From Bacteroidales bacterium (GTDB taxonomy: Bacteria; Bacteroidota; Bacteroidia; Bacteroidales; Salinivirgaceae), in contig JAAYQU010000005.1 of assembly GCA_012519055.1 (NCBI GenBank), positions 1 through 64,000 of the forward strand: a stretch of DNA of 64,000 nt, written 5' to 3'. Position 1 is the first letter of the stretch; each line of letters starts with the position of its first letter. The notes beneath the pieces are model-generated. The model did no database searches, was not told the DNA's origin, and saw nothing but the letters and a program-made list of their open reading frames with translations. Position numbers and translations under genes: made by a program. Positions 43,661 through 64,000 of this stretch are shown one piece after another.

Positions 43661-43676
43661 GGTGTTTGTTTTTTAT

Positions 43677-45116
43677 CTATTCTGTTATTACTATTGTTTC
43701 TGTTTTCATCTGTTTATCTGACACTGCTTTAACTAAATATATTCCTGGCGGTACTTTTTTATAGTTTGATGTTTCCTTGTTCCATTCTATTGTATTTTGT
43801 GATGGATGAACAGTTGTCTTAAAAACTAAAAAACCACTTATATTATAAATCTGCACTTGAACAGCACTTGTTGATTTTGTTTCAATTTTTATTCCTTGAC
43901 TAATTGTAGAAGGATTTGGAAAAACACGTAAATGAAAATCATTTAATTTTGCTGTTTGTTCTATGCTGTTTTGATTTTCAATTTTAAGTTTTCTTATCGA
44001 AACACGAGATTCTTTATAGTATAGGAGAGGGTAATGCAAGAATATAAGGTACAATGATGTATCTTTAGCAATAAGTTTATGATCATTAAAACCTTTCTCT
44101 TCAAATTCAATTATTTGAGATGTCCAGGTACCATTTTTAAGTACATAATGCATCTGATTGTGTCCTGTTTCAGTTTTCTCGCTTTGTACAATATGCACAG
44201 TGCCATTTTTCTCAATAATCATTGAATGCTCGGTACTATATTTAGGTGTAAGTATAGATGTTTGCCACTGATCGTTAATTTGTGTTGTGTAATATGTTGT
44301 ATCTATATAATTTGTCCTTGAAACCCAAACAATATGTGGTTCATTGCTTTTTCCGATAGCCATACTCATGCTAGCCCAAAATGGTTTACATACGGAATCA
44401 GGATTTGTCCAATCATTATCTACTTTTTTTAAATAAGTCATGTATGTTGTAGATTGCGTTGTTTCATATGCCGTCATATGTATATTATTTTGTTCGCTTA
44501 ACTGAATGCAACAAATAGTAACACTGTTATTGTTAGGATATGGATTAGAAATAGGACTAAAACTACCATTCGAATAAGTTCTGTATCGGAGTCTCCTTTC
44601 TTGAAAATTATGCCAAAATATGTGTAGTATCCCACTTTTATCCATTATTAAATTGCTGTGAATAAATATACCTACATTTTCGCTTACTAATACCGGCTCG
44701 CTCCATGTCTCTCCATCAAATATTTGCATATGTATTAAAGCTGCAACTTGTGAATTTGTATTATAGTCATACGTAACATATAGCTTATTATCGGGTCCAG
44801 TAACTATCTTAGGATTGCACATCCAAAGAGCGGGATTCTTAACGATATCATAAGGCTCACTCCATGTCTCTCCTTGATCGGTAGATTTTGAATAAAGTAT
44901 TTTCCAAAAATTATCTCCTACTTTGTATTCCCATACAACATGTATGTGATTATTATTGTCAATTGTGATATCCACATCTCTGCTGGTAGAAGTTCCTTGA
45001 AATATGGTTATGGGTTCACTCCACTCTTGCGCCTTTGTGGTTTTTGGAGCTATTAAAATAGCAAATAACAGTAGGCAGTATAAGGTTAGTGATATGTTGG
45101 GTATTCTGCTTTTCAT
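43677..45116 (-). CDS. T9SS-secreted sialidase-like propeller protein, paralog B
   Basis: This 479-residue protein is similar to its downstream neighbour: signal peptide ending TKAQ (about 1-29), the same EWSEPI start, blades with HVVWEY, YSKSTDQGETWSEPY and HIFWHN, and a T9SS type A tail beginning VFPNPSTISQ (about residue 403). The Asp-box-like S-x-D-x-G-x-x-W appears at STDQGETW. Both proteins end with a fibronectin-poor, GIYLVK-type sorting strand. It is the first gene of the pair. Function is unknown; secretion to the surface or medium is well supported. Confidence 0.8.
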   Translation of the reverse strand: MKSRIPNISLTLYCLLLFAILIAPKTTKAQEWSEPITIFQGTSTSRDVDITIDNNNHIHVVWEYKVGDNFWKILYSKSTDQGETWSEPYDIVKNPALWMCNPKIVTGPDNKLYVTYDYNTNSQVAALIHMQIFDGETWSEPVLVSENVGIFIHSNLIMDKSGILHIFWHNFQERRLRYRTYSNGSFSPISNPYPNNNSVTICCIQLSEQNNIHMTAYETTQSTTYMTYLKKVDNDWTNPDSVCKPFWASMSMAIGKSNEPHIVWVSRTNYIDTTYYTTQINDQWQTSILTPKYSTEHSMIIEKNGTVHIVQSEKTETGHNQMHYVLKNGTWTSQIIEFEEKGFNDHKLIAKDTSLYLIFLHYPLLYYKESRVSIRKLKIENQNSIEQTAKLNDFHLRVFPNPSTISQGIKIETKSTSAVQVQIYNISGFLVFKTTVHPSQNTIEWNKETSNYKKVPPGIYLVKAVSDKQMKTETIVITE

Positions 45117-47338: not shown

Positions 47339-47372
47339 ACTGCTTTACTTTATAAGTGATTAACAAATCATA

Positions 47373-47693
47373 CTAAATATTTTCCCATAACAACCTAATA
47401 ATATTGCGATTGTTAACACCTCTGGGACAAACCAACTGACATTTTCCACAAAACATACAGTTTTGCAACTCCTCTCTTATTTTGTCAGTCAAATTACGTT
47501 TTACATACAGATGTATATAGTGCATTCTTAGTTTTGCAAACTCTCCGCCTGTACAAGTTGCCGAACATGAACCACAAGAAATACACAGCCTGCTTGTTGG
47601 TTCATTTTCTTCAATAATATTCGCCAAATGGAACTCTTCCGGCTTATATTCGATTGTTGACGACTTAGATATACTAAAACCAAAACCTGACAT
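47373..47693 (-). CDS. Small HdrC-like double [4Fe-4S] protein
   Basis: This 106-residue protein has two cysteine motifs of the HdrC kind: C37/40/43/47 (CISCGSCSATC, followed by Thr-Gly-Gly instead of Pro) and C79/82/85/89 (CMFCGKCQLVCP). Helical segments surround them. It is about half the size of the other HdrC-like protein of the operon and probably wires the FAD subunit to the membrane HdrDE-like subunit. The gene is 4 bases downstream of the HdrA-like gene and 34 upstream of the membrane subunit. Confidence 0.85.
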   Translation of the reverse strand: MSGFGFSISKSSTIEYKPEEFHLANIIEENEPTSRLCISCGSCSATCTGGEFAKLRMHYIHLYVKRNLTDKIREELQNCMFCGKCQLVCPRGVNNRNIIRLLWENI

Positions 47694-47697
47694 AATA

Positions 47698-48720
47698 CTA
47701 TTTTCTGTTTAAATAATCGATAATCGACATTGCTGCTGCTTTCGCGTCTGCTGCACTCTCATGGATAGTTTTTGGTCCTGAGACGGTTCCACAACAAAAA
47801 ATTCCAGGCTGTGATGTTTGATTTGGATTGTAAAATATATTTTCCGGTGCTACAAAACGGTTTGGCGCGAGTTTCAAATCAATAGATTTATCAAGATTGG
47901 GCAATTTAGCCGCCTCTTTCCCAACCATTAAAACCAACCAGTCAACGCTTACGTTCATTGGCAATCCCGTTAAAGTATCTTGCACTTTTAAAACTAAAGA
48001 GCCGTCTATATTTTCAGAACACTCTGACAATCTGCCTCTTATAAACTTAATTCCATGTTCTACCTGAGCTTCCATATACAACTCTTCGAAACCATTGTCG
48101 AACATTCTTAAATCAATGTAAAAACAGATTACTTCAGCGTCAGGAAATCTCTCTTTCAACTCTATTGACTGTTTGACTGCCGATACGCAACAAAGCTTAC
48201 TGCAATGCAAGTTTCCAGCTTTTTCATCACGCGAACCGACACAATGAATTAAGCCTATACGTTTGGGTATAGTGATATTTGAATGCTCTTTTAATATTTT
48301 CTCAACCTCAACACTTGTTTTTACATTTGAGTATAAACCATAGCCATACTCCTCTTTTTTTGTGGGATCGAACGTGTTAAAACCTTGAGCTAACAGAACA
48401 CTCTCCGCTTCGAAAGAGTGACCAGAACTAGTCTTTACAATATAATTATCATATATAGAGTCTATTGAGATAACCTCATCACTAGTAATGTTGTGTATTC
48501 TTTTATCATTTATTTCCGAAACGATATTTGATACAACTTCATCAGCATTTACAAACCCAGGGAATAGTTTATACCATTTATTTAAATGCCCACCCAAATT
48601 ATCCTCTTTCTCGATAATTAAAACTCTTATTCCAAACTTATAGAGTTGTAGAGCGGCGGTCATTCCTGCGATACCACCACCTATTATAATTGTTTGATAT
48701 TTAGTGTCGTATGCTCTCAT
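47698..48720 (-). CDS. HdrA/QmoA-like FAD oxidoreductase subunit
   Basis: This 340-residue flavoprotein begins with the dinucleotide-binding GGGIAGM (14-20) and an EKEDNLGGHLNK segment typical of HdrA. The cluster-binding region HCVGSRDEK...HCSKLCC provides C160, C173, C177 and C178. A C-terminal CCGTVSGPKTIHES motif closes the FAD site. It lacks the N-terminal [4Fe-4S] domain and C-terminal ferredoxin domains of methanogen HdrA (about 650 residues), so it resembles compact QmoA-type proteins. Electron bifurcation is not implied. Its ATG overlaps the stop of the HdrB-like gene by 4 bases. Confidence 0.87.
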   Translation of the reverse strand: MRAYDTKYQTIIIGGGIAGMTAALQLYKFGIRVLIIEKEDNLGGHLNKWYKLFPGFVNADEVVSNIVSEINDKRIHNITSDEVISIDSIYDNYIVKTSSGHSFEAESVLLAQGFNTFDPTKKEEYGYGLYSNVKTSVEVEKILKEHSNITIPKRIGLIHCVGSRDEKAGNLHCSKLCCVSAVKQSIELKERFPDAEVICFYIDLRMFDNGFEELYMEAQVEHGIKFIRGRLSECSENIDGSLVLKVQDTLTGLPMNVSVDWLVLMVGKEAAKLPNLDKSIDLKLAPNRFVAPENIFYNPNQTSQPGIFCCGTVSGPKTIHESAADAKAAAMSIIDYLNRK

Positions 48721-49778
48721 AAAATATATTCGGGCTGTTTTGGAATTGAGAAAATTTTTCCTGATTTATCGGCAAACTTCTTGTCTTTATCATATTTGAT
48801 TCCCATTTTATCTAATAGTGGTTCGGCACTTACCTGGTGCATCTGCAATCCCAAGTCCCAAGGGTCGTAGCCTAAAACAAGCCCAGCCAACTCCTCATAC
48901 GTCAGAACGGGAATGCCCGTTTTGTCGGGACCAAATGTTTTGTGTTCCATCTCACTTATGGTGTATTGCCACTTGTCGATAAACATCGTACATCCGGGGC
49001 AATTCGCTATAATCATATCGGGCTTATAAGGCTCCATACTCTGAAGCTTTTTGTATGTGTTTGAAACTGAGTAACCTCTATTTGCTTGAACCAAATATTG
49101 ACGGAAACCAAATCCGCAACAATGTCTCCGTTCTGGATAATCGACTGTTTGACCGCCCCATGACTCAATCATTCCTGTTAGAACTTGTGGAAATTCGGCT
49201 CCGCCCTCGCCATATTCTGGAAAGATTTTAGCATAATGACAGCCAATATGATCGACTATTTTAAGAGGTTCGCCTGTCTCTGCGTTAACAAGTCTATTTT
49301 TCCCCTTGTTTTTTATTTCTTCTCTGAATTTGTAAATTATATCTGAACAGTGAGCAATATTTTCGGGGATTTCAAACTCTCTTTTTGTTGCTTTATATAG
49401 GTTTTCTCTTGTTTTTTCAAGTTCTGAGGGGAACTCTTTCCAAGTTTCTAGTACTTCAGAGTATAACCCAAATGAAGTAACACACGATATTGCCACGTTT
49501 TTTAGTTTTGCTTCGGTCATCAATGCAAAATGCCTTGCAATAATAGTTTGTAAAGTATCAAAATTTACAACATCGCTGTGATATCCAATTCCCGAGCAAG
49601 TAGTATGTCGCGCATCTTCAACTACGTTTTTTCCAAGCTCGTTTCTTAAAATATGTAGAAACGCCTGCTCCGATGCAGGGAAAAAGTTTTGACGAATGCA
49701 ACTTCTTACAAAAAAGAAATTATCGTCTCCAATGCTCTTCTGGTACTTCCGCCATATGTCTCTCTTCTCTTTACTCAT
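48717..49778 (-). CDS. HdrB-like CCG-domain protein with a degenerate N-terminal site
   Basis: This 353-residue protein has two CCG regions. The second is complete (C180, C220-C221, C260, C263), able to hold the noncubane cluster known from HdrB. The first retains C27, C61 and C99, but the paired cysteine is Thr60 and the final one is Ser102, so that site probably lacks a cluster. Extra length (HdrB is about 300) lies in the region between the two. It overlaps its neighbours by 4 bases on each side, placing it in the centre of a tightly coupled operon. It would be the catalytic or electron-exit subunit. Confidence 0.85.
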   Translation of the reverse strand: MSKEKRDIWRKYQKSIGDDNFFFVRSCIRQNFFPASEQAFLHILRNELGKNVVEDARHTTCSGIGYHSDVVNFDTLQTIIARHFALMTEAKLKNVAISCVTSFGLYSEVLETWKEFPSELEKTRENLYKATKREFEIPENIAHCSDIIYKFREEIKNKGKNRLVNAETGEPLKIVDHIGCHYAKIFPEYGEGGAEFPQVLTGMIESWGGQTVDYPERRHCCGFGFRQYLVQANRGYSVSNTYKKLQSMEPYKPDMIIANCPGCTMFIDKWQYTISEMEHKTFGPDKTGIPVLTYEELAGLVLGYDPWDLGLQMHQVSAEPLLDKMGIKYDKDKKFADKSGKIFSIPKQPEYIL

Positions 49779-50482
49779 CGTTGATGTTTTTTTTCGTTAA
49801 CTGTAGTAATGTGCTTCATATATTCGCAATCATGGCTATCGTCAAACCCAAGTCCCATTTTTTCCGCTTGTTTCTCTGAATAGTTCTCAATTGTTTCAAA
49901 AAAATCGTTATTTCCAGTAATTTCAAATATTGCATCTAGTTCTTTAAGTGTCTCATTATCAATTTGTCGCAAAGCCCCTTCTCCAAGTTTATCTAAATTA
50001 GCTCCTAACCTATCATAAACTGCTTGACTGTTTTTATGAACCCACTCCCACACAGGACCTTGTTCGGGATGTTTCGATGGTGTAAGTTCTGCCGGATATA
50101 TACAGTATCCATATTTTAACACATTATCTCCAACTGTTCGTTTTAGTGCCAGCTGTTGTCTTCCCTTTTCAGACTCGGTAAAATAGCCCATCTCTTGCGA
50201 TAATTTTCTTAAAGCCATTATAACATATGCAGGGGTATTGTTACGCGGACACCGTGTTCGACACGACAAACATTGTCCACAATACCAAATTGTTTCGCTT
50301 TTCAACAAATCTATAATAGTTTCATCATCAGCCGTTTGTACTATGCTTACAATTCGTCGCGGATCGTAATCATAAAACTCTGCAGCAGGACATATTGCAG
50401 TACAGACACCGCAATTCATACATGCTTTAAGCCCCTCCTCAAATCTAACATCCTCAAACAATTTATCACGTAATTTCCCCAT
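49775..50482 (-). CDS. HdrC-like double [4Fe-4S] protein, first gene of the operon
   Basis: This 235-residue protein has two classical cluster motifs in the N-terminal third: C21/24/27/31 (CMNCGVCTAICP) and C68/71/74/78 (CGQCLSCRTRCP), both with the HdrC spacing. The rest is helical, longer than in standard HdrC (about 190), with a charged tail. It should pass electrons between the HdrA-like and HdrB-like subunits. A Bacteroidota promoter lies about 60 bases upstream, and its stop overlaps the HdrB-like start (4 bases). Confidence 0.87.
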   Translation of the reverse strand: MGKLRDKLFEDVRFEEGLKACMNCGVCTAICPAAEFYDYDPRRIVSIVQTADDETIIDLLKSETIWYCGQCLSCRTRCPRNNTPAYVIMALRKLSQEMGYFTESEKGRQQLALKRTVGDNVLKYGYCIYPAELTPSKHPEQGPVWEWVHKNSQAVYDRLGANLDKLGEGALRQIDNETLKELDAIFEITGNNDFFETIENYSEKQAEKMGLGFDDSHDCEYMKHITTVNEKKHQR

Positions 50483-50982: not shown

Positions 50983-53900
50983 ATGGTTAAAAAGGCTGTT
51001 TTATTATTACTAACGATTTGTACATTTACTGCACAAGGGCGTAATACTGGCAATCTTGGACTTCCTTTTACAAAACAATTCAAATCGTCTGACTATGGTG
51101 CATCGCACCAAAACTGGGCTATTGCTCAGGGTCAAAATGGATATATGTACTTTGGCAATAATGACGGTTTGCTTGAATTCAATGGTCAAGAGTGGAAAAC
51201 ATATAGTATGCCTAATAATTCTGCGGTTAGATACATACACGTTTCTACCGACGATAAAATATATGTCGGAGCTTTCAATGAATTTGGATATTTTGAACGT
51301 GACGAATATGGCTCACTTATATACACCAGCCTTTCAAATGAGATAAAAGAGACTGACATCAAAACGGTTTGGAAAATAATTCCATATGAAGATGCAATAT
51401 ATTTTATTGCTGAACGACAAAATATATTCAAATATGACTTTATAAAAGTTAGTAAAATATATATCCCATCAGTAGTCTCTGAGTTTAGAGCCTTTTTAGT
51501 AAATAATGTTTTTTACATATTCGACAGTTATGCGGGCTTGGCTGTTCTAAAAAACGACACTGTATATCGTTATCAAAACGAAATTTTTGATAAAAAAATT
51601 GCTGTTTATTCTATTCTGCCGATTGAAGATGATTACATTCTGATAGGAACCAACACAAATGGATTTTTTAAAGTAGACACAAAAAAACTGTCGCCTATAC
51701 CAAATGAACAAACTATTAATCTTGATAAAACTAAAAGAATAGTCATTAATAGTAAAACCTCACTCAAAGGACTCCTATTTTATGAAGAATTTAAGTCAGC
51801 TGTTAGCGAAGAGATCAAAAAGGGTAGAATCTATTATGGGATAAAGAATGATAACGACGAGTTCGTTTACGCCACACTCAAAGGAGGCATATTTATATTA
51901 AATAAAAAAGGCGATTTGATTGACCGTTACTTCGCAAACAAAGGTATCCCTGACAACAACGTATTCTGTGTTTATGAAGATATGGAATTTAACCTGTGGG
52001 CTACAACAGAAAAAGGAATAACTTTACTAGAACCTTATAGCGGATACAGAGTTTTTGATACACACTCCGCAATAAAAGGTAATATATTATCACTGTCATC
52101 CATAAACAGCAACATTTATATTGGAACTACCTCAGGGTTATATGCTATAGAGAGAGAACAAGACGCCGTTATATCGTTGCCAAGCAGGTACAATACCATT
52201 ACTGATGACTATATTTATATAATGTCATTTCTAAAGAACCCATCTGATAATCAAAGTTTTTTATTTAGCTCTTTGTCAAATATACATGAATATAATATTC
52301 AAACTAAAGAGTTAAAAAACATTCACAGTGTTTATGCAGGTCAAAATATGATTTCTTACCCATTAGACAGTTCTGCTATTTTCATAGGTCATAGACCGGG
52401 TATTACTGTCATAAAAAGGGAAAACAACAAAAAATATAAGGTGATTGAAACATTTGAAGGTTTTACAGAACATGTGGGTAATATGACTTTCGACAAAGTG
52501 GGCAACTTATATATCTCCAATATTTCCGGTCTATTGATGATGAAATTCAATAGTCCAAATAATTTCAAGGACTACTCTATAGTGCGATACAATACTACTA
52601 ATGGCTTGCCAACAGATGAGAAAAACCAATGGTTAATTATTGGTGACTCTATTGTTGTGTTAACAACCAATGGTATTTATCTGCCTGACAAACAGGAAAA
52701 TATTGGCAAAACAGATCTTACTTTCAAAGAGTACAGCGAACTAAATCAGCAATTTGACAAAGAAGACTTACCTATTAGACAAATATTAGAGGCTAAAACC
52801 GGAGATTGGTTAATTAGAAGTGACAATGAAGTATCCTATTTCTTAACAGAACAAAAAAGACTCGTAAGGCAACCGTTTTTAAGGGATGGTGATTTAAAAA
52901 TCAGCGATATGTGTATTGGTGATAATCAAAGGGTATGGATGTCATCATATGACAATTTGTACTGCTTCGATTTTAAAACCATGAAAAGTATTTCTCACAA
53001 ACAAACATTATCTTTTACAAACATTACAATTGGACAAGATTCAACTATACCTATACGTATTAATAATAATGTAAAGGATATTGGAGATGTTAGTTTTAAA
53101 TATAATTCCCTGAAAGTTGAAGTTACATACCCGTCATATAGGGACTTGAAAAACATCAAATACTCGTTTTTTTTAGATGGAATTGATAAGTCGTGGACAC
53201 CTTGGACAAACATAGGGAGATACGCCATATCATACTTGCCCGTGGGTCAATATACGTTACACGCCAAAGCATTAGATAGTGATGGAAATGAAACAAATGA
53301 GATACAACTAATATTCTCAATCAAACCTCCATTCTATAGGACAATAACTGCTTTTATTATTTATACAATAGTTGTCATAGCTTTAGTATATGGCCTTATC
53401 AAGTTGAATACTCTTAGACTTAAACGTGAAAGGCAAAAACTTAGGGACACTATAAAAAAAGCTATTTCTACCGTAGAGAAACAAAAAGATGAATTAATAG
53501 AGCAAGCCAAAGAACTTGAAACAACCAATTTAGAACTTGATAAACTATCACTTGTTGCCCGATATACTGACAATGCGGTTGCAATAATGGACTCTAAAGG
53601 CAACTTTGAGTGGATAAATGAAGGGTTTACACGCATATATGGGTATGAACTTGAAGAGTTGTTAGATAGAACTTTAGATATAAAAATTGAAAAAAATTTC
53701 ACACATAATATTAACAAATTACTAGAGACATGGTACCATGACCAAAAGCCCATTGTGTATGAATCATTAAACATGCATAAAAACGGTTCGGAAATTTGGG
53801 TGCAAACTACTTTAACTCCCATTCTGAACGAAAACAACGAAGTAACAAAGCTAGTAGCAATAGATGCAAATATTAGTAAATTAAAAAAAGCCGAAGAAGA

Positions 53901-54774
53901 GATAAAACTGCAAACTGACGAAGTACAAATACAACGCGATATAGCAATATTACAACGTGATGAAATATTACGACAAAAAGATGAAATAACAGATTCAATA
54001 TTATACGCAGAAAGAATACAAGAAGCTATTCTGCACACTAATACTCATTTAAATAAGTTATACAGAGATAGTTTTGTGTTAAGTATTCCACGTAACATTG
54101 TAAGCGGCGATTTCTTCTGGTGTCACGCTAATGAAAACCACAAAGTAATAGCAGTTGCAGACTGCACTGGACACGGTGTTCCCGGAGCATTTATGAGCCT
54201 AATTGGAATTAGCTTTTTAAAAGAGATAGTTTCAACTCTTGGTTTTTACAAACCAGACGAAATACTAAAAATGCTACGTTACAACATAATATACGCATTA
54301 AATCAAAAATGTGATGATGGTTCTAATGGTTATAGTGGTAGTTTTAGCGAAAGCAAAGACAGCATGGATATGTCATTAGTTACTGTAGACATTCAAAATA
54401 ATATATTGTATTATGCAGGCGCAAACTGCCCAATTTATATAATAAATGAAAATCAAATAACAGAGTATAAACCGGACAAAATGCCAATAGGCACGCATAG
54501 AAACAATCACTTACATTTTACATTACACACAATACCTATAAAAAAAGGTGACAGAATATATATGTTTACCAATGGTCTTATTGATCAATTTGGTGGAAAA
54601 GATGGAAAAAAACTAAAAAGAAATGGATTTAAAGAAAAAATAGTTGAATTACAAGAGTTCGATTTTAATGAACAGTGCAGTCGTCTAAAAAACTTCTACA
54701 AAATGTGGAGTGCTGGTATAGAACAAGTTGACGACATTTTAATAGTTGGGTTTGACACTGATTCCGGCACCTAA
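50983..54774 (+). CDS. Propeller-Y_Y_Y-PAS-SpoIIE sensor phosphatase 1 (SiaA-role candidate)
   Basis: This is about 1,263 residues from the ATG at 50983, which gives a proper signal peptide (MVKKAVLLLLTICTFTAQG); the frame is open from 50926. The periplasmic part is a two-component-regulator-type beta-propeller (about 25-690; FGNNDGLLEFNGQEW, VYEDMEFNLWATTEKGI) with a Y_Y_Y domain (about 696-782). One membrane helix (about 786-807) leads to a coiled coil, a PAS domain (about 855-966), another coiled coil and a SpoIIE/PP2C phosphatase (about 1028-1263). Metal-binding aspartates D1043 (SGDFFW) and D1060 (ADCTGHGVPG) and the final VDDILIVG are intact. It lacks a histidine kinase domain. By analogy with SiaA it would dephosphorylate a SiaC-like protein in response to an external ligand. 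It is 26 bases from the second paralog. Confidence 0.88.
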   Translation: MVKKAVLLLLTICTFTAQGRNTGNLGLPFTKQFKSSDYGASHQNWAIAQGQNGYMYFGNNDGLLEFNGQEWKTYSMPNNSAVRYIHVSTDDKIYVGAFNEFGYFERDEYGSLIYTSLSNEIKETDIKTVWKIIPYEDAIYFIAERQNIFKYDFIKVSKIYIPSVVSEFRAFLVNNVFYIFDSYAGLAVLKNDTVYRYQNEIFDKKIAVYSILPIEDDYILIGTNTNGFFKVDTKKLSPIPNEQTINLDKTKRIVINSKTSLKGLLFYEEFKSAVSEEIKKGRIYYGIKNDNDEFVYATLKGGIFILNKKGDLIDRYFANKGIPDNNVFCVYEDMEFNLWATTEKGITLLEPYSGYRVFDTHSAIKGNILSLSSINSNIYIGTTSGLYAIEREQDAVISLPSRYNTITDDYIYIMSFLKNPSDNQSFLFSSLSNIHEYNIQTKELKNIHSVYAGQNMISYPLDSSAIFIGHRPGITVIKRENNKKYKVIETFEGFTEHVGNMTFDKVGNLYISNISGLLMMKFNSPNNFKDYSIVRYNTTNGLPTDEKNQWLIIGDSIVVLTTNGIYLPDKQENIGKTDLTFKEYSELNQQFDKEDLPIRQILEAKTGDWLIRSDNEVSYFLTEQKRLVRQPFLRDGDLKISDMCIGDNQRVWMSSYDNLYCFDFKTMKSISHKQTLSFTNITIGQDSTIPIRINNNVKDIGDVSFKYNSLKVEVTYPSYRDLKNIKYSFFLDGIDKSWTPWTNIGRYAISYLPVGQYTLHAKALDSDGNETNEIQLIFSIKPPFYRTITAFIIYTIVVIALVYGLIKLNTLRLKRERQKLRDTIKKAISTVEKQKDELIEQAKELETTNLELDKLSLVARYTDNAVAIMDSKGNFEWINEGFTRIYGYELEELLDRTLDIKIEKNFTHNINKLLETWYHDQKPIVYESLNMHKNGSEIWVQTTLTPILNENNEVTKLVAIDANISKLKKAEEEIKLQTDEVQIQRDIAILQRDEILRQKDEITDSILYAERIQEAILHTNTHLNKLYRDSFVLSIPRNIVSGDFFWCHANENHKVIAVADCTGHGVPGAFMSLIGISFLKEIVSTLGFYKPDEILKMLRYNIIYALNQKCDDGSNGYSGSFSESKDSMDMSLVTVDIQNNILYYAGANCPIYIINENQITEYKPDKMPIGTHRNNHLHFTLHTIPIKKGDRIYMFTNGLIDQFGGKDGKKLKRNGFKEKIVELQEFDFNEQCSRLKNFYKMWSAGIEQVDDILIVGFDTDSGT

Positions 54775-54800
54775 CTTTGTTTATTAGCTAAACACCTAAA

Positions 54801-57800
54801 ATGCATAAATTAAAACTCTATTTTATCTTACTTCTTCTGCTTCCATTAAGCACATTGGGACAGGGATTACCACTTATACAATCATACAAAGCCACCAAAT
54901 ACGGAGGAGGTGTTCAAAACTGGGATATATATATTGACAAGTCTAATATAGTATATTTTTCTCATAATGAAGGTGTAACCACATTCGACGGTAAAAAGTG
55001 GGAGCATTTTAGAAACTCAAACATTTCACACATTAGATGCATGTCAATGGGGGCAGGCAACAGATTGTACGCAGGAGGCTATTTTGAATTTGGATATTTT
55101 GAACCAAACATACTTGGAAAACTCGAATACACATCATTAATGGATAGATTTGTTGACACATCCCTACAATTTACTTATGTATGGAGCGTTGCAGCAACTT
55201 CTTCAAATACGGTTTTTACAATACGGGACCAAGTCTTACTGTATGATATGGATAGCATTAAAGTAATTAAATCAAATTGCAAACTATCAAGAGTATTTAA
55301 TATTTTCGACAACACTATATTATTCTCTCGAGGCGAAGGAATATTAAAGCTATCAGGAACCGAATTTACACCACTACCTGGATTAGACATGTTTAAAGAT
55401 GACACATATGTGCTAATTACAGAATTTTCTGATAACCAAATATTGTTATGTTCTGAGTTATCGGGTATATGGATATACAATTATGGCGCTGCATTAACCA
55501 ATCAAAAACAACCATATTTAAGAAGAATTGAAACAAATATTGAAGAAGAAATATCCAGCGAATTATTAAGCGATATTGAGTATGATTCTTTAAGAAACAC
55601 CATCCATATTTGCACAATGACAACATTATATTCAATTGATACTCTTGGGATTACAAAAAGTATTCTTGGTTTTGAACAAGGAATTGTTGGTAAATATGCA
55701 ATTTCAATAAAATGTGACAGACTCGGTAATGTATGGGTTGGAACTGGAAATGGTGTTTCGTATGTACATATGGCAAGCCCACTAAGATTTATCGACAACC
55801 GATTGGGTAACCCCGAACATCCCTATGATATACTCTTCAATAGTGATTACTCATATCTTTCAACCATGGGCGGTTTATCTATCATAAAAACAGAAGACCT
55901 GTTAAAGTCTCCTGCAAAGCCTTTAACAGAAATGATTTCAGATCAAATTGGCGGATGGGAAATACATAATTTAGATAATAGAATTATCACTTCCGTAGGT
56001 TATAAGATAATTGAAATAGTTGCTGATAAAGTCAAAACAAAACTTTCAAAAGTCGATGCTTATTCAATTACAAATTATTCAAAAAAGGATCAAATTCTTT
56101 TTCTTGGTGGAGTTGATAATTCATACTTGCTAGATATGAAAAACAAAAACAGGACAACAAAAATGGAAAATTTAGCAGGTTCTGTTAAAAGAGCCGTTGC
56201 TGTTGGAGAATATCATATTTTAGCAGAGTTTTTTTCTGAAAACACGTTTAATATATATAGAGATAGTGCTGGAAAAGACGTATTTCAAATATTCGATAAA
56301 AACCTGGGATTCAACGCAAAATATGGTGTGCCAATAATATTAGATTCAAACGCTTATTTATGTACATCGAACGGTCTTTATAAAGTTCTTTTCAATAAAG
56401 ACAAAAGTGTAGATACTGTGTTTTTAGATCGTGATTTCGAACAATTTAAAGAACTGAAAAACAATCTTTTATGGATTACGCTTGATACCGCTTCAGATGG
56501 TTACTGGGCAACAACAGAAAAAGATTTGATATTTATAAAAAAACATAAAAACAAACCTAATAAAGTTATAAAAAATCCTTTTAAAATAGTTCCAAGGACA
56601 GATGAAATATTCCTTTTTAAAAACTTTGTAGTAACCTTATACACCGAAGGAGTTTGTTTCTACGACAAAAACAAACCAACACTAGACACTACAATGTTTA
56701 ATACAATATTTAGAGAAATAAAATTTGATAAAGAATACCTATTCAATGGGTACTATCCGTTTGACAGCAACTCAAATAATCATATTAAAATCAAACAGCC
56801 GATTAAATATGATAAAAATAATTTAAAAGTAAGTTTTATTTCTCCTTACTATTTTTATCAAGACTCAATTAAATACGAATGCATATTAGAGAACTTCGAT
56901 AAAGAGTGGATCAATTTAGGTTCAAATACTGAAAAAGAGTACACAAATATTCCTCCTGGTAACTATTGCTTTAAAGTGCGAAGCATTAACGTGTTTGATA
57001 GCGTATCGGAAGTTGCTGAGTTACATTTTTCTATATCAACCCCTTGGTATCAAACAGCATGGATGATATCAATATACATTATTGTTGCAATTCTATTTGT
57101 GATATTAATAATAAAACTTAACACCCATAGGCTAAAAAAACAGAATGAACTCCTTGAACAGACTGTATTAAGCAGAACCAAAGAACTTCAACAAAAAGCA
57201 CTAAATATAAGTGAACAGAATGAGAAAATAAAAGAGCAAAACGAACAAATAAAAGAACAATCTAGAGAAATTGAGTTCGCAAATAAACAACTATCTCAAC
57301 TTTCAGTCGTAGCTCAACAAACTGACAACGGGGTTTTAATAATAAAATACCCTAATTCAATACGATACATAAATAACGGAATGTTGAAAATGCTTGAGAT
57401 TGAAAACTTTAAACAATCCGATAACCAACAAAACAGAGAGATTTTACTTAGACTACAAAATCTAACAAAGGTCCTACAAGAGACACTTGAAACATCTGAA
57501 CCTAACGTCTTTGAAGCAATAGTAACCACTTTTAAAAATCAAAAAAAATGGATGCAAATTACAGTGTCGCCTGTTTATGAGTTTGAATTACAAACAGAAA
57601 AGGTTGTGGTGGTATGCACCGACATATCAGATATTAAACTTGCAGAAGAGGAGATATCACAACAAAAAGAGGTATTGTATTCACAAAGTGTACTTCTTAG
57701 AAACACCAATACTGAATTGGCAAAAGCAAACCAATTAATGCGAGACTCAATTACCTGCGCTCAAAGAATCCAAAAATCAATGCTTCCCAACATAAAGGAA

Positions 57801-58496
57801 ATAAGAGCTGTTTTTACAGACACATTTATATTCTTTAAGCCAAAAGATATTGTTAGTGGTGACTTTTATTGGTTTAATAAAATTGATGACTCTTATATTA
57901 TAATTGTAGCTGATTGTGTTGGACACGGTGTTCCCGGAGCCTTTATGTCAATGATAGGAAATACACTGCTTAAAGATACTGTCAGTCACAAAATTCAAAA
58001 CCCTGCACAAATTCTCACTCATTTAAACGATGGCATAAAAACAATCCTACGTCAAAAAGGGAAAATTGACAATATCCAAAACGACGGCAGCATGGATATA
58101 ACTGTTTGCATATATAACCCTGAGTTAAAAGAAATACAAATTGCATTAGCTAATCACAGAGCATTGCTAATCAGAAAAGATGAAATCAATATTATCGAAG
58201 GTGATATTTTTGCAGTTGGAGACATCTTTACACATATGGTACCTGTAAAATACACTTACAAACAATATTCTATAGAAAAAGGCGATGTTCTGTATATGTA
58301 CACCGATGGTTTTCAAGACCAGTTGGGTGGAGCAGATTACTCCAAATATGGCAGTACCAGATTATTGAAACACTTAGAAACAATCTATAAAGAACCATTT
58401 AAAAACCAATTATCCAAACTTAAAAATGAGTTTGTAACGTGGAAAAAAAATAAAAAACAAACAGATGATATTTTAATATGGGGAATAAAGTTCTAA
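54801..58496 (+). CDS. Propeller-Y_Y_Y-PAS-SpoIIE sensor phosphatase 2
   Basis: This 1,231-residue paralog has a signal peptide (about 1-20, ending LGQ), a beta-propeller (about 25-640), a Y_Y_Y domain (about 655-748), a membrane helix (about 751-773), a coiled coil with two QNExIKE heptads (DNA 57216-57257), a PAS domain (about 832-951) and a SpoIIE/PP2C domain (about 1006-1231). Aspartates D1021 (SGDFYW) and D1038 (ADCVGHG) and the final TDDILIWG are present, so it should be active. It is much closer to paralog 3 than to paralog 1: both start with nearly the same signal sequence and GGGVQNWD motif and share the WINL/WICI-type Y_Y_Y end. It probably shares a transcript with paralog 1. Confidence 0.88.
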   Translation: MHKLKLYFILLLLLPLSTLGQGLPLIQSYKATKYGGGVQNWDIYIDKSNIVYFSHNEGVTTFDGKKWEHFRNSNISHIRCMSMGAGNRLYAGGYFEFGYFEPNILGKLEYTSLMDRFVDTSLQFTYVWSVAATSSNTVFTIRDQVLLYDMDSIKVIKSNCKLSRVFNIFDNTILFSRGEGILKLSGTEFTPLPGLDMFKDDTYVLITEFSDNQILLCSELSGIWIYNYGAALTNQKQPYLRRIETNIEEEISSELLSDIEYDSLRNTIHICTMTTLYSIDTLGITKSILGFEQGIVGKYAISIKCDRLGNVWVGTGNGVSYVHMASPLRFIDNRLGNPEHPYDILFNSDYSYLSTMGGLSIIKTEDLLKSPAKPLTEMISDQIGGWEIHNLDNRIITSVGYKIIEIVADKVKTKLSKVDAYSITNYSKKDQILFLGGVDNSYLLDMKNKNRTTKMENLAGSVKRAVAVGEYHILAEFFSENTFNIYRDSAGKDVFQIFDKNLGFNAKYGVPIILDSNAYLCTSNGLYKVLFNKDKSVDTVFLDRDFEQFKELKNNLLWITLDTASDGYWATTEKDLIFIKKHKNKPNKVIKNPFKIVPRTDEIFLFKNFVVTLYTEGVCFYDKNKPTLDTTMFNTIFREIKFDKEYLFNGYYPFDSNSNNHIKIKQPIKYDKNNLKVSFISPYYFYQDSIKYECILENFDKEWINLGSNTEKEYTNIPPGNYCFKVRSINVFDSVSEVAELHFSISTPWYQTAWMISIYIIVAILFVILIIKLNTHRLKKQNELLEQTVLSRTKELQQKALNISEQNEKIKEQNEQIKEQSREIEFANKQLSQLSVVAQQTDNGVLIIKYPNSIRYINNGMLKMLEIENFKQSDNQQNREILLRLQNLTKVLQETLETSEPNVFEAIVTTFKNQKKWMQITVSPVYEFELQTEKVVVVCTDISDIKLAEEEISQQKEVLYSQSVLLRNTNTELAKANQLMRDSITCAQRIQKSMLPNIKEIRAVFTDTFIFFKPKDIVSGDFYWFNKIDDSYIIIVADCVGHGVPGAFMSMIGNTLLKDTVSHKIQNPAQILTHLNDGIKTILRQKGKIDNIQNDGSMDITVCIYNPELKEIQIALANHRALLIRKDEINIIEGDIFAVGDIFTHMVPVKYTYKQYSIEKGDVLYMYTDGFQDQLGGADYSKYGSTRLLKHLETIYKEPFKNQLSKLKNEFVTWKKNKKQTDDILIWGIKF

Positions 58497-58644
58497 TTAA
58501 AGTTAAAAGTTTGTAAAGTACAAGTTGCTAATTATTAGTAATTAGTACAAATCTTGCTCAGAAAAACAATCAAAACATCCTTTCCCTTTACAAAGAATCA
58601 TCGAAACAGAATGAGTGCGTAAAACATGCTAAAAACACCTTATC

Positions 58645-61600
58645 ATGCATAACTTAAAACTATATTTTATCTTACTTCTCCTGCTTCCACTGCAAATATT
58701 GGGGCAAGGTTTACCATATATAAAATCATATAAGGCCTCTAAATATGGAGGAGGCGTTCAAAATTGGGATACATATATTGATAAATCTAATATAGTATAT
58801 TTTTCCAACAATGAAGGTATTACCACTTTCGACGGCAAAAATTGGGAAAATATAAGTGATTCTCGCCTTTCATACATTAGATGTATGTCAATGGGAGCTG
58901 ACAACAAATTGTACGTCGGAGGACTTTTTGAACTTGGATACTTTGAACCAAACCAGCTCGGCAAACTTGAATACACCTCATTAATGGACAGGATTGTTGA
59001 TAAAGAACTAGAGTTTACTTATGTATGGAACATCGCTGCTAATTCTTCAGCTATCGCTTTTACAATAAGGGGTGAGGTTCTGCTGTATGACATGGACAGC
59101 ATTAGAGTTATTAAATCAGATTGCAAACTAGTAAGAGTATACAGTGTTTTCGACAACATTTTACTATTTTCTTATGGTGAAGGAATATTTAAGCTTGAAG
59201 GAACCAAATTTATACCATTACCAGAATTAGATTTTTTTAAAGACGATACTTATGTAATAATCACTGAATTTGCTGATAATCAAATATTAATATGCTCTGA
59301 ATTATCAGGAATATGGATATACGACTTTGGTGCCAGGTTAAACAATAAAAAGCAACCATCTCTAAAAAAAATTGAAACATCTATTGATAAAAATTTTGGA
59401 AGTGAACTATTAAGCGATGTGGAGTACGACTCTTTTATGAATACTATTCATATATGCACAATGTCAACACTCTATTCGCTTGATACCCTCGGAAACACAA
59501 AAAACATTCTTGACTATAAACAGGGTATAGTTGACAAACATATTATTTCATTAAAATGTGACAGATTTGGTAATGTATGGGTTGGGGCTGGAAATGGAGT
59601 TTCACATGTTCACACATCAAGTCCTATTAGATATATTGATGACAGGTTGGGTGACCCCGAACACCCTTATGATGTTATATTCAATCACGATTATTCATAT
59701 TTTACAAATTTAAGTGGCTTATTCATTATAAAAACCGAGGACCTTTTTTGCGTCCCCCCAAAACCTTTAAAACAACTTATTGCCAGTGGCTACGGTGGAT
59801 GGGGAATGCATAGTATTGATAATAAGGTTTTTGCTTCCGTGGATAATAGTCTAAATGAAATAGTTGCAGGTAAAATAAAATCGAAGATTGTAACATCAGA
59901 TTCATATTCACTAACATATTATTCTCAAAAAGATCAAATTCTTATTGTTGGAGGAATTGACAACTCGTATCTGTTTGATATAAAAAATAAAAACAGTTTA
60001 ACCAAAATAGAAAATTTAACAGGTACTATTAGAAAAGTTATTGGAATCGGAGAATATCACGTTATTGCTAAGTTTTTTTCCGATAAAACGTTTAATATAT
60101 ATAGAGATAGCACTAATAATGACGTCTTTCAACTTATCGACAAAAAACTTGGTTTCGACGCCAGGTACAGTATGCCAGTACTAATAGATTCGAATGCATA
60201 CATATGTGCGTCAAACGGTCTTTATAAAATTGTTTTTAACAAAGATAAAAGTGTAGATACGGTGTTTTTAGATAAAAATTTTGAACAATTTGAAGAACTA
60301 AAAAACAATCTTTTAAATATTGTACGTGATACCGCTCTAGACGGTTATTGGGCAATAACAACTGAAGAGTTAATGTTTATAAAAAATCACAACAACAAAC
60401 CAAGTGAACTTATTAAAAATCCTTTTAGAATTGTTTTACCATCAGAAAAATTAACACTTATAAACAACTATATAGTAACCTTCCTTTACGACGGTATTTG
60501 TTTCTACGACAAAAGCAAACCAAGATTAGATACAATTAAGTTTAATACATTATTTCGAGAAATAGAATTTGGCGATGAGACTTTGTTTAAAGGATACTAT
60601 CCGTTTGATAATGAATCATACAATATTAAAATTGAACAGCCTATTAAATATGAAAATAATAGTTTAAAAGTATATTTTGCTTCCCCTTGTTATTTTTATC
60701 AAGACTCTATTAAACATGAGTGCATATTAGAGAATTTCGACAAAGAATGGATCTGCATAGGCTCTGATGGCGAGAAAGAGTACACAAACATTCCTCCCGG
60801 TAATTACTGCTTTAAAGTACGAGGCATTAATGTGTTCAACAACGTATCAGACATTGCTGAATTGCATTTTTCTATATCAAAACCTTGGTATCAAACAGCC
60901 TGGATGATAGCAATATACGTTATTGTTGCAATTATATTTGTGATGTTAACGATAAAGATTTACACCCATAGACTAAAGAAACAAAATGAACTTCTTGAAA
61001 AGTCTATATCAAACAGAACTGCAGAGCTTAGATTAAAAGCACAAGATATAAGTAAACAAAACGAACAAATTAAAGAGCAGAACAAACAAATAAAAACACA
61101 AAACGAACAAATTAAAGAACAAAATGAGCGAATAAAAGAGCAATCTAAAAACCTAGAAGTTGTAAATAAACAACTAACACAACTATCGGTTGTTGCTCAA
61201 CAAACAGATAATGGAGTTTTAATAATAAAAATCCCCGAAACAATACGATACATTAATGAAGGTATGTTAAAAATGCTTGATATTGAAAATTTTACACAAA
61301 TTAGCGACCGGCAAAGTAAAAGCATTTTGCTTAGGCTACATAATCTAACAAGCATTCTGCAAGAGACGTTTAATACATCTGAACATATCGTTTTTGAAGA
61401 AAAAATAACAACTTTTAAAAACCGAAAAAAATGGTTGCAATTTACCGTATCTCCTATTTATCAGTCTGGAATACAAACAGATAAAGCTGTGGTGTTATGC
61501 ACCGACATAACGGCTATTAAACTTGCTGAAGAGGAGATATCACAGAAAAAGGATGAGTTGTATTCACAAAGCGAACTCCTTAAAGACGCTAACCTCGAAT

Positions 61601-62376
61601 TGGAAAAAGCAAATCAATTAATGCGCAACTCCATGACATATGCACAAAGAATTCAAAAATCAATGCTTCCAAACCTAGCAGATATTAGAACTGTTTTTGA
61701 GGATACATTTATATTTTTTATGCCGAAAGACATTGTTAGTGGAGACTTTTACTGGTTTAACAAAATTGATGATTCTTATATTTTAATTGTTGCCGATTGT
61801 ACCGGACACGGTGTCCCGGGTGCCTTTATGTCGATGATAGGGAATACACTGCTAAAAGATACAGTAAGTAAAAAAATGGATAATCCTGCTGAAATTCTTT
61901 CCTATTTAAACGATGGCATAAGAACAACTCTACGCCAAAAAGATAACATTGACGATATGCAAAGTGACGGAATGGATATAACGGTGTGCATTTACAATCC
62001 TAAGTTGAGGGAAATACAAATTGCATTAGCTAATCACCGAGCGTTGCTAATAAAGAAAGATGAGATCATTATTGTTGATGGTGATATTTTTGCAGTCGGA
62101 GGTAGTTTTACAAATAGGATATCAATAGAATTCACTAACAAAAAATACTCTATAGAAAAAGGTGATATTTTATATATGTACACCGATGGATTCCAAGACC
62201 AATTGGGCGGAACCGACTACTCTAAATATGGAGGCTCAGAATTCTTAAAATATCTGGCGTCTATCTTTGGCGAGTCATTTAATATCCAATTTTCAAAACT
62301 TAAAAACGAATTTTTAACGTGGAAAAACGACAAAAATCAAACTGACGATGTTCTAATTTGGGGCATTAAATTCTAA
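58645..62376 (+). CDS. Propeller-Y_Y_Y-PAS-SpoIIE sensor phosphatase 3
   Basis: This 1,243-residue protein is a close copy of paralog 2 with the same domain order: signal peptide, propeller (about 25-640), Y_Y_Y (about 655-747), membrane helix (about 750-773), extended coiled coil, PAS (about 846-963) and SpoIIE/PP2C (about 1019-1243). D1034 and D1051 (ADCTGHG) and the final TDDVLIWG are intact. Its signalling helix has four full 21-base heptad units against two in paralog 2. The propellers of 2 and 3 differ most in exposed loops, consistent with different ligands, an inference. A 148-base gap with a short dispersed repeat (58527-58550) separates the two genes. A strong terminator follows. 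Confidence 0.88.
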   Translation: MHNLKLYFILLLLLPLQILGQGLPYIKSYKASKYGGGVQNWDTYIDKSNIVYFSNNEGITTFDGKNWENISDSRLSYIRCMSMGADNKLYVGGLFELGYFEPNQLGKLEYTSLMDRIVDKELEFTYVWNIAANSSAIAFTIRGEVLLYDMDSIRVIKSDCKLVRVYSVFDNILLFSYGEGIFKLEGTKFIPLPELDFFKDDTYVIITEFADNQILICSELSGIWIYDFGARLNNKKQPSLKKIETSIDKNFGSELLSDVEYDSFMNTIHICTMSTLYSLDTLGNTKNILDYKQGIVDKHIISLKCDRFGNVWVGAGNGVSHVHTSSPIRYIDDRLGDPEHPYDVIFNHDYSYFTNLSGLFIIKTEDLFCVPPKPLKQLIASGYGGWGMHSIDNKVFASVDNSLNEIVAGKIKSKIVTSDSYSLTYYSQKDQILIVGGIDNSYLFDIKNKNSLTKIENLTGTIRKVIGIGEYHVIAKFFSDKTFNIYRDSTNNDVFQLIDKKLGFDARYSMPVLIDSNAYICASNGLYKIVFNKDKSVDTVFLDKNFEQFEELKNNLLNIVRDTALDGYWAITTEELMFIKNHNNKPSELIKNPFRIVLPSEKLTLINNYIVTFLYDGICFYDKSKPRLDTIKFNTLFREIEFGDETLFKGYYPFDNESYNIKIEQPIKYENNSLKVYFASPCYFYQDSIKHECILENFDKEWICIGSDGEKEYTNIPPGNYCFKVRGINVFNNVSDIAELHFSISKPWYQTAWMIAIYVIVAIIFVMLTIKIYTHRLKKQNELLEKSISNRTAELRLKAQDISKQNEQIKEQNKQIKTQNEQIKEQNERIKEQSKNLEVVNKQLTQLSVVAQQTDNGVLIIKIPETIRYINEGMLKMLDIENFTQISDRQSKSILLRLHNLTSILQETFNTSEHIVFEEKITTFKNRKKWLQFTVSPIYQSGIQTDKAVVLCTDITAIKLAEEEISQKKDELYSQSELLKDANLELEKANQLMRNSMTYAQRIQKSMLPNLADIRTVFEDTFIFFMPKDIVSGDFYWFNKIDDSYILIVADCTGHGVPGAFMSMIGNTLLKDTVSKKMDNPAEILSYLNDGIRTTLRQKDNIDDMQSDGMDITVCIYNPKLREIQIALANHRALLIKKDEIIIVDGDIFAVGGSFTNRISIEFTNKKYSIEKGDILYMYTDGFQDQLGGTDYSKYGGSEFLKYLASIFGESFNIQFSKLKNEFLTWKNDKNQTDDVLIWGIKF
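61057..61140 (+). repeat. 21-base tandem repeat encoding QNEQIKE heptads in the signalling helix
   Basis: Four in-frame 21-base units (61057, 61078, 61099, 61120) encode QNEQIKE, QNKQIKT, QNEQIKE, QNERIKE, followed by a diverged fifth. Paralog 2 has only two full units (57216-57257). Confidence 0.8.
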
Positions 62377-62470
62377 ACATTTTTTTCATCTGCTTCAATA
62401 ACCACCAAAAATTAAGCTCTGTTTACACTAACAAAGAGATAAAATCTGTTGAAGCCAAATCAACCAAAAT

Positions 62471-62509
62471 ATTAAAGCCAACTATATCTGCAAAATAGTT
62501 GGCTTTAAT
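62471..62509. terminator. Bidirectional terminator between phosphatase 3 and SiaC-like genes
   Basis: ATTAAAGCCAACTAT (62471-62485) pairs perfectly with ATAGTTGGCTTTAAT (62495-62509), a 15-bp stem with a 9-base loop, between two convergent transcripts. Confidence 0.75.
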
Positions 62510-62537
62510 ATATTAACTTTTACTTATATCAAAGTTA

Positions 62538-62918
62538 TTATTCTGAATCCTGCACAACTTCAATATCTGCATCTATTAATTGTTTATATCGATTTCCAGC
62601 TGCCTCCATATCCATGTCACCTTCTTTAAAGTTCCATATTATCTTAACCTTGCTACGTTTACTCAACTTTTCTAATAAAAACATCAGTTTAGATATTTGT
62701 TTCGCCGTGCTGGTTGAATAGTACTCAAAATTAAATCTAAAAAGAGTCTCTTCATTAGGTTCATCAATATACATTTTGAACCATTCCAAAACGGTATCAT
62801 AAAACCTAACAGCATCCTCCGGTAAACTTTTTTTAGATATGGAAAATATTCCTTTCGCAGGATCAAACAATACTCGTGGAGAATCTTCTGTTTCTTCTAT
62901 AAACAATGGATAGATCAT
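62538..62918 (-). CDS. SiaC-family (DUF1987) regulatory phosphoprotein, copy 2
   Basis: This 126-residue protein has the SiaC/DUF1987 fold pattern, similar to STAS-type partner proteins: a short N-terminal strand with TEDSPRV, ISKKSLPEDAVRFYDTVLEWF and then FNFEYYSTSTAKQISK. Alignment to Pseudomonas SiaC puts T69 at the phosphorylated threonine (T68 there). The usual N-T-S-S context is S-T-S-T here. SiaC is phosphorylated by SiaB and dephosphorylated by SiaA, and the unphosphorylated form activates a partner. The gene is 5 bases downstream of its paralog and last in the operon; it converges with the third phosphatase gene. Confidence 0.85.
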   Translation of the reverse strand: MIYPLFIEETEDSPRVLFDPAKGIFSISKKSLPEDAVRFYDTVLEWFKMYIDEPNEETLFRFNFEYYSTSTAKQISKLMFLLEKLSKRSKVKIIWNFKEGDMDMEAAGNRYKQLIDADIEVVQDSE

Positions 62919-62923
62919 AATAC

Positions 62924-63328
62924 TTACTCTGTTATTATTCTAAAATCATCATCTTCTACCACAGGTAGAACTTCCATTTTAAAGTCAATATTGGTAAGTT
63001 TTTCAAATCTTTTACCACTATTTAACATATCTGTATCGTCATCATAATAACACCATATAACCTCTACCTCCTCTTTTATACTTTTCAAAAAGACAAAAAT
63101 TTTGGATAGTTGTTTAGCAGAAGAGGTATTAAAGTATTCCAATTCAAACCGAAAAACCGTTTTCTTCTTTGGATTCTTAGCATATTCTTCCAACCATCTA
63201 AAAATAGGTTTGTAAAACAGAAATGCATCCTCGGGCAAAGAGCGTTGAGATATTAAAAACTCATCGGCATCTACGTCCAAAACAACTTTAGGAGTATCCT
63301 CTGTTCCTTCATAAATTAATGGTGTCAT
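62924..63328 (-). CDS. SiaC-family (DUF1987) regulatory phosphoprotein, copy 1
   Basis: This 134-residue protein matches DUF1987 throughout: YEGTEDTPKVVLDV, ISQRSLPEDAFLFYKPIFRWLEEYA, FELEYFNTSSAKQLSK and VEVIWCYYDDDTDM. The phosphosite is T68 in the canonical N-T-S-S context, the same residue number as the known SiaC site. It differs from copy 2 over most surface positions while keeping the core. The gene lies 8 bases after the SiaB-like gene and 5 before copy 2, so all three should be co-transcribed. The downstream target of the unphosphorylated form is not in the window. Confidence 0.88.
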   Translation of the reverse strand: MTPLIYEGTEDTPKVVLDVDADEFLISQRSLPEDAFLFYKPIFRWLEEYAKNPKKKTVFRFELEYFNTSSAKQLSKIFVFLKSIKEEVEVIWCYYDDDTDMLNSGKRFEKLTNIDFKMEVLPVVEDDDFRIITE

Positions 63329-63336
63329 ACTGCATA

Positions 63337-64000
63337 TTATTCAATATAAACCTGAAGAATAAAAAACGATTTTTCATCATCAATATCTTGGAATTTATAT
63401 CTGAGTTTATCATTACTTTTCATTCTAAGCTCAATAAATCCCAACCCCGATTCCTTTGGTGTATCTATTTGAAAATCAAACAAACACTTGTTATAATAAT
63501 CTTCAAGTTCTTCACGATTCAAACTGTTAACATAGTCAATTTTATCCTTAACCTTATCAATATTTTCTTTCAAAATATAGTTACCTGTATTAAGAATATG
63601 CATATTATTTTTCTTGTTAATAAAAAATATTCCCGGATTTCCCTTTCTTTCCTCATCTCTAAGTGCATGTTTAACAATGTTTTGCAACATTTCAACCATC
63701 ATATTAAAGACAATTCTTCTTATATGCCCCATGCCCTCCATTTGGGTTTCTATGATATTCAACAAATTAATGAGGTTCTCCTGATTAAAAATACCATTGT
63801 AAATAAGCTGTACCTCTTTTTGTTGCAGAAGCTGATGTAATAAATAAATATTATCAATTCTTACGAGTTCTGTATCATCACTATCTCCTTCTTCTCTTGG
63901 GGTTATACATGTATGAAAATAAAAATATGAACAAACATCATCTATCTTATGAAAATGATGAGATATTTTATTATTAGATTTTTTTGCAATTTCTATTAAC
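63337..64000 (-). CDS. SiaB-like kinase (DUF6272), 5' end outside window
   Basis: The frame is open from the stop at 63337 to the right edge, 220 residues, with no in-frame stop. The C-terminal about 165 residues match SiaB-family (DUF6272) kinases: an EVQLIYNGIFNQE start, then FNMMVEMLQNIVKHA with the GHKL-like N-box (E and N), NAG-type GNPGIFFINKK, and GLGFIELRMKS. SiaB phosphorylates SiaC on threonine. A TTG at 63765 could start a short form, but it would cut into the conserved domain. About 55 further in-frame residues precede the domain without any ATG, so the protein extends beyond the window and may carry an extra N-terminal domain. Confidence 0.82.
   Translation of the reverse strand, partial: LIEIAKKSNNKISHHFHKIDDVCSYFYFHTCITPREEGDSDDTELVRIDNIYLLHQLLQQKEVQLIYNGIFNQENLINLLNIIETQMEGMGHIRRIVFNMMVEMLQNIVKHALRDEERKGNPGIFFINKKNNMHILNTGNYILKENIDKVKDKIDYVNSLNREELEDYYNKCLFDFQIDTPKESGLGFIELRMKSNDKLRYKFQDIDDEKSFFILQVYIE

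Follow-up and report, generated by a model that had tools for sequence, protein, structure and literature searches.

What does a Sia-type partner switch act upon in a genome that encodes no GGDEF protein? This question is raised by a cluster of six genes at the end of the analysed window, a stretch of 64,000 nucleotides of DNA from a member of the Salinivirgaceae (Bacteroidales), in which three putative sensor-phosphatases (P1 to P3) face a putative kinase (SiaB2) and two putative phosphoproteins (SiaC1 and SiaC2). All six genes are present at the positions given in a preliminary description of the locus. In the literature found, the SiaC switch has a diguanylate cyclase as its end point. Searches of the open literature, from which closed journals may differ, found nothing relevant on DUF1987 outside Pseudomonas, on SiaC-like or SiaB-like proteins, on SpoIIE phosphatases with propeller or Y_Y_Y domains, or on partner switching in Bacteroidetes. 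The reading preferred here, with a probability of roughly 0.77, is that the cluster is a Ser/Thr partner switch of the Sia type, with its sensor outside the cytoplasm and an effector other than a diguanylate cyclase.

Sensor-phosphatases and their input modules

P1 (50983..54774, + strand) is predicted to comprise a signal peptide, a propeller/Y_Y_Y sensor, a transmembrane (TM) segment, a coiled coil, a PAS domain, and a SiaA-type SpoIIE phosphatase. P2 (54801..58496, +) would carry a double-propeller sensor like those of hybrid two-component systems (HTCS), Y_Y_Y, a TM segment, a coiled coil, a weak PAS domain, and a SiaA-type SpoIIE domain, and P3 (58645..62376, +) is a duplicate of P2 that is 69% identical to it. 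The preliminary description had given all three a propeller-Y_Y_Y-PAS-SpoIIE architecture, and this stands for the SpoIIE domains (58.5, 75.8, and 67.8 bits in P1, P2, and P3, respectively) and the Y_Y_Y domains (38.6, 40.8, and 40.3 bits), all of which score above the Pfam cut-offs. The Reg_prop and PAS matches exceed the cut-off in P1 only and are sub-threshold in P2 and P3; for P2, the propeller is supported by a structural model. When an AlphaFold2 model of P2 residues 1-783 (pLDDT 85, pTM 0.80) was compared with the PDB using Foldseek, the top 10 matches were to the HTCS sensor of BT4663 (4a2l/4a2m; best E 9e-31, TM up to 0.72), followed by BT4673 and BT3049. BT4663 is a heparin-sensing hybrid two-component protein, and 4a2l/4a2m is its periplasmic domain. 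As modelled, the P2 input module is of the HTCS type, in line with the earlier proposal; a putative HTCS-like assignment follows for P3 from its identity to P2 and for P1 from Pfam matches and a weak alignment. Like the Bacteroides hybrid two-component sensors (BT4663, BT4673, and BT3049; PDB 4a2l, 3ott, and 3v9f), P2 in its model has periplasmic propellers, Y_Y_Y, and one TM helix, whereas the proteins of the cluster have a PP2C phosphatase in place of the histidine kinase, receiver, and AraC output. Pfam searches of P1 to P3 found no HisKA/HATPase, receiver, or AraC domains, and the C terminus of each is SpoIIE only. A sensor fold known from polysaccharide sensing via histidine kinases is here joined to protein phosphatases.

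SiaA is the best NCBIfam match of the PP2C parts of P1, P2, and P3 (E 1.9e-42, 3.5e-46, and 3e-44), at scores (146-158 bits) that miss the SiaA equivalog cut-off of 700 bits. Every PP2C metal-ligand motif is kept in P2 and P3. P1 reads FTNG where SiaA reads STDG, placing Asn1197 (54571-54573, +) at the metal-ligand Asp of TDG; the corresponding Asp (D600 by a motif count made here) coordinates metal in the published SiaA structure (PMC7647112). Among 91 SpoIIE domains of the fetched loci, Asp occupies this position in 83, the pattern is unreadable in 7, and Asn occurs in P1 alone; the remaining 15 SpoIIE proteins of the same genome were checked singly at this position. Because its metal-ligand Asp is replaced by Asn, the P1 phosphatase may be weak or dead. 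In the related locus L136, one gene is the closest match of both P2 and P3 (43 and 42%), and the second gene, which is partial, is that of P1 (55%); judged by sequence, P2 and P3 seem to have arisen by duplication within the lineage.

SiaC proteins and an asymmetric tandem kinase

SiaC1 (62924..63328, -) and SiaC2 (62538..62918, -) both fall in PF09345 (the two Pfam scores being 102.8 and 113 bits), and SiaB2 matches DUF6272/SiaB_fam_kinase with 117.9 bits (Pfam) and the NCBIfam SiaB_fam_kinase model with 135 bits against a cut-off of 85, bearing out the SiaC-like and SiaB-like identities first proposed. The NCBIfam equivalog cut-offs are missed by the SiaC proteins (49-60 versus 150 bits) and by SiaB2 (52.7 versus 225 bits). 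The predicted phosphosites, Thr68 in SiaC1 (63125-63127, -; F-N-T-S-S) and Thr69 in SiaC2 (62712-62714, -; Y-S-T-S-T), both align to T68 of P. aeruginosa SiaC, and this position is Thr in 7 and Ser in 4 of all 11 SiaC proteins encoded by the genome. The gene of SiaB2, a tandem SiaB-family kinase of 368 amino acids, spans 63337-64443 (-), and only 63337..64000 lies within the window; with its start beyond the window edge, the gene is incomplete in the window, which corrects the preliminary description. The intergenic gaps among the genes of SiaB2, SiaC1, and SiaC2 are 8 and 5 bp, and scans for promoters and terminators gave signals no higher than those in shuffles. Elsewhere in the genome, seven orphan SiaC genes without an adjoining kinase are found on contigs C1, C10, C13, C16, C47, and C49 (L020-L025), with neighbours that include genes for a sigma-54 response regulator and an FprA-like flavoprotein.

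The cluster resembles SiaABCD, a biofilm phospho-switch of Pseudomonas aeruginosa (PMC7647112, PMC8457831; PDB 6k4e, 6kko, 6k4f, 7e6g) in its PP2C phosphatase, its GHKL-fold SiaB kinase, the SiaC N-T-S phosphosite at a matching position, and the presence of SiaB and SiaC in one operon. It differs in its input, an HTCS-type periplasmic sensor instead of that of SiaA, and in its make-up: there are three phosphatases and two SiaC proteins, SiaB is tandem and asymmetric, and the GGDEF protein SiaD is missing from both cluster and genome. Because SiaD is absent and the equivalog cut-offs fail, the cluster is not SiaABCD; on the sequence evidence, it would operate in the manner of a Sia partner switch, and its parts are members of the SiaB and SiaC families.

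SiaB2 carries two DUF6272 domains. The ATP-lid motif GGAGLG is present in the N half, where the canonical G-box KGGAGLGL (63997-64020, -) lies partly inside and partly beyond the window, and is lost from the C half, where the degenerate G-box PKESGLGF (63436-63459, -) lies inside the window. All 23 tandem proteins compared across the order have a canonical N half, and 21 of them have a C half without GGAGLG, with the N-box E and QN kept in both halves. Tandem SiaB forms a single clade in the tree (support 100/98), within which SiaB2-SiaC fusions nest. The loss of the motif solely from the C half and the single clade make it somewhat probable that this half acts as a conserved pseudokinase, regulating the N half without itself phosphorylating SiaC, which fits the partner switch preferred here; against this, the GLG end of the lid persists in the C half, where weak ATP binding is possible, and two tandem proteins (L091 and L095) retain both lids. 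A conserved asymmetric double kinase is thereby brought to light. Of the fetched loci, 23 encode SiaB2 and SiaC as a single chain; these are not all independent, as some share a record. A model of a homologous SiaB2-SiaC fusion matches the SiaB and SiaC chains of 6kko with a target TM of ~0.88-0.89 (0.88 for 6kko_A). A 639-aa SiaB with a long N-terminal part (L047) was rejected as a Rosetta-stone fusion; that part is without a family match and resembles a reading-frame artefact. Polyphosphate kinase genes accompany the SiaB2-SiaC fusion genes of two loci (L041:6281-10100 and L045:6466-12133); in L045 the two are separated by a gene for an ion-channel-like protein.

Recurrence of the neighbourhood and a proposed mechanism

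The nearest relative of the locus, a Salinivirgaceae record (L136) whose SiaB2 is 72% identical, has the same layout of dapF, SiaB2, SiaC, and SiaC with facing sensor-phosphatases. This layout is also found, with variation, in L138, L139, L140, L157, L161, and L165, and the facing arrangement of the genes is retained in L136, L138, L139, L140, and L165. The absence of such conservation had been named beforehand as refuting the partner-switch reading, and the neighbourhood was found to recur: SiaC adjoins 73 of 81 unfused tandem-SiaB loci, and SpoIIE and Y_Y_Y-SpoIIE genes lie within five genes of 24 and 14 of them. These counts are given without a p-value, since many of the contigs are truncated and the records partly share ancestry. 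Because tandem SiaB-SiaC genes occur without these phosphatases adjoining in relatives such as L048 (of the same family) and L137, the pairing of P1 to P3 with SiaC1 and SiaC2 is by neighbourhood only. The phosphatases could have further substrates.

The genome (2.71 Mb, rated 100% complete) encodes 11 SiaC proteins, five DUF6272 domains, 16 SpoIIE proteins (seven with Y_Y_Y), three class III cyclases, and six cNMP-binding proteins. It encodes no GGDEF protein, so that what had been stated for the window holds for the whole genome. The switch had also been called complete, and its parts are indeed present; however, the cluster forms a single node in a network that spans the genome and has no output gene of its own, its kinase is tandem and asymmetric, and P1 has the D to N change at a metal ligand. 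The order was sampled with 118 genomes, most of them belonging to separate families (49 with and 69 without SiaC). SiaB was encoded by 49 of 49 SiaC-carrying genomes versus 1 of 69 others, and SiaA-type SpoIIE by 46 versus 0; Fisher tests of such co-occurrence are extreme but ignore phylogeny.

The reading of the cluster as a Sia-type partner switch with an output other than c-di-GMP is well supported by sequence and fold, and agrees with the HMM assignments, the phosphosites, the absence of GGDEF, and the recurring neighbourhood. We infer that the periplasmic HTCS-like double propeller and Y_Y_Y of P1 to P3 bind some ligand, and that the signal passes along the membrane helix and the coiled coil (and PAS) to set the activity of the cytoplasmic PP2C phosphatase. 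SiaB2 would phosphorylate SiaC1 and SiaC2 at Thr68 and Thr69, most likely via its N half, with the degenerate C half more likely shaping the dimer or docking SiaC. P2 and P3 would strip phosphate from SiaC, P1 perhaps doing so weakly or never, and unphosphorylated SiaC would bind and switch an effector other than a diguanylate cyclase.

Candidate outputs of the switch

GGDEF was found in 1 of 49 genomes with SiaC and 2 of 69 without. Because it occurs in only 3 of 118 genomes and is absent from the genome studied here, the switch cannot end in SiaD. The kinase, phosphatase, and adaptor families have multiplied in this order although GGDEF is lacking in 115 of the 118 genomes sampled, and SiaC must therefore have another target. 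Two concrete candidates can be named, class III cyclases and a TerB-ABC exporter. Solo SiaB clades with clear neighbours include SpoIIE-SiaB-SiaC-TerB-ABC and, in the present genome (G000), G108, and G015, a class III cyclase; the tandem SiaB clade has no constant effector neighbour in the loci examined.

Tentatively, the output may be a class III nucleotide cyclase, with unphosphorylated SiaC clamping its helical stalk and setting cAMP instead of c-di-GMP, a candidate suggested by analogy with the binding of SiaC to the SiaD stalk (PMC8457831). In this genome, without GGDEF but with its three class III cyclases and six cNMP-binding proteins (one a cNMP-binding SpoIIE), the target could be a soluble coiled-coil cyclase-HD protein (C1:97360-98757) or a propeller-Y_Y_Y-PAS-cyclase (C46). 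Soluble coiled-coil (stalked) cyclase-HD proteins occur in 32 of 49 genomes with SiaC versus 0 of 69 without, and any cyclase-HD in 41 versus 3, a co-occurrence uncorrected for phylogeny that may reflect lifestyle. A cyclase directly adjoins solo SiaB in G000, G108, and G015 (one clade), and a cyclase-HD adjoins SiaC in L124, but adjacency is rare (a few of ~120 cyclases listed, little above a rough chance estimate) and was dropped as statistical proof. The N-terminal coil of the cyclase-HD, LVKRIARLMDENKELSRQ, resembles, in part only, the SiaC-binding motif of SiaD, LERIARISDGFQSMARE; with the RIA[RK] motif in 6 of 22 coils and the Thr68-contacting residues (S82, Q86) lost in cyclase coils, this resemblance is a weak lead to the output. 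The protein at C1 97360-98757 (L021:17360-18760) combines a coiled coil, a class III cyclase, and an HD domain in a single chain of 466 aa. That on C46 (L026:5671-10288), a propeller-Y_Y_Y-PAS-PAS-class III cyclase, lies directly downstream of a solo SiaB, a pair also found in L038 and, in a shorter form, in L037. The SpoIIE phosphatase with an N-terminal cyclic-nucleotide-binding domain (L028:6930-8150; C21 74930-76150) may let cAMP feed back on the switch.

Slightly less probable as the output is the TerB-ABC-ABC2 membrane protein (C43 and C31 in this genome), in which case SiaC would gate either an exporter or the TerB domain of the protein. The genes SpoIIE-SiaB-SiaC-TerB-ABC form a conserved operon, TerB-ABC lies at most three genes away in 33 of 74 SiaB loci, and its gene occurs in 46 of 49 genomes with SiaC versus 4 of 69 without. 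However, those four genomes have TerB-ABC without SiaC, and TerB-ABC is never within three genes of the tandem-SiaB loci used for the tree; because the link is confined to other, solo SiaB clades, the window cluster does not necessarily have TerB-ABC as its output. The operon core is kept in ~30 genomes of the order. On C43 (L019, 52689-64111) it comprises CheR, CheR, CheB, TM-GAF, GAF-PAS-PAS-SpoIIE, SiaB, SiaC, and TerB-ABC-ABC2, along with two short proteins without a family match. A wider picture, still rather doubtful, is that a Sia network spans the lineage and operates in many Bacteroidales, where numerous environmental sensors, many with the HTCS-type fold of sugar sensors, would act on PP2C phosphatases, and these with few SiaB kinases (one with a pseudokinase half) and many SiaC proteins would control class III cyclases (cAMP) and the TerB-ABC exporter rather than c-di-GMP.

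The RsbU/RsbW/RsbV and SpoIIE/SpoIIAB/SpoIIAA systems share the switch logic, a PP2C phosphatase against a GHKL Ser/Thr kinase on a STAS-fold protein, whereas the small proteins of the cluster are SiaC (PF09345), its kinase is DUF6272, and a STAS antagonist and sigma factor gene are absent within it. That P1 to P3 serve a classical RsbU-RsbW-RsbV switch on a sigma factor via STAS proteins, with their SiaC and SiaB neighbours incidental, is very improbable: SiaB has a SpoIIAB/RsbW-type and SiaC a SpoIIAA-type fold, and a SpoIIE of another type is encoded elsewhere in the genome (L027), but SiaA is the best NCBIfam match of all three PP2C domains (E 1e-42 to 1e-46), no SiaC-less genome of the sample has a SiaA-type SpoIIE, and the facing gene layout is conserved.

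Upstream of the putative Sia-type switch, on the opposite strand, an Hdr/Qmo-like cluster (45512-50482, -) of two CCG proteins, Fe-S proteins, and an FAD oxidoreductase ends 500 bp from P1, and at 42233-45116 (-) the window encodes a pair of secreted BNR-like proteins with Por secretion tails.
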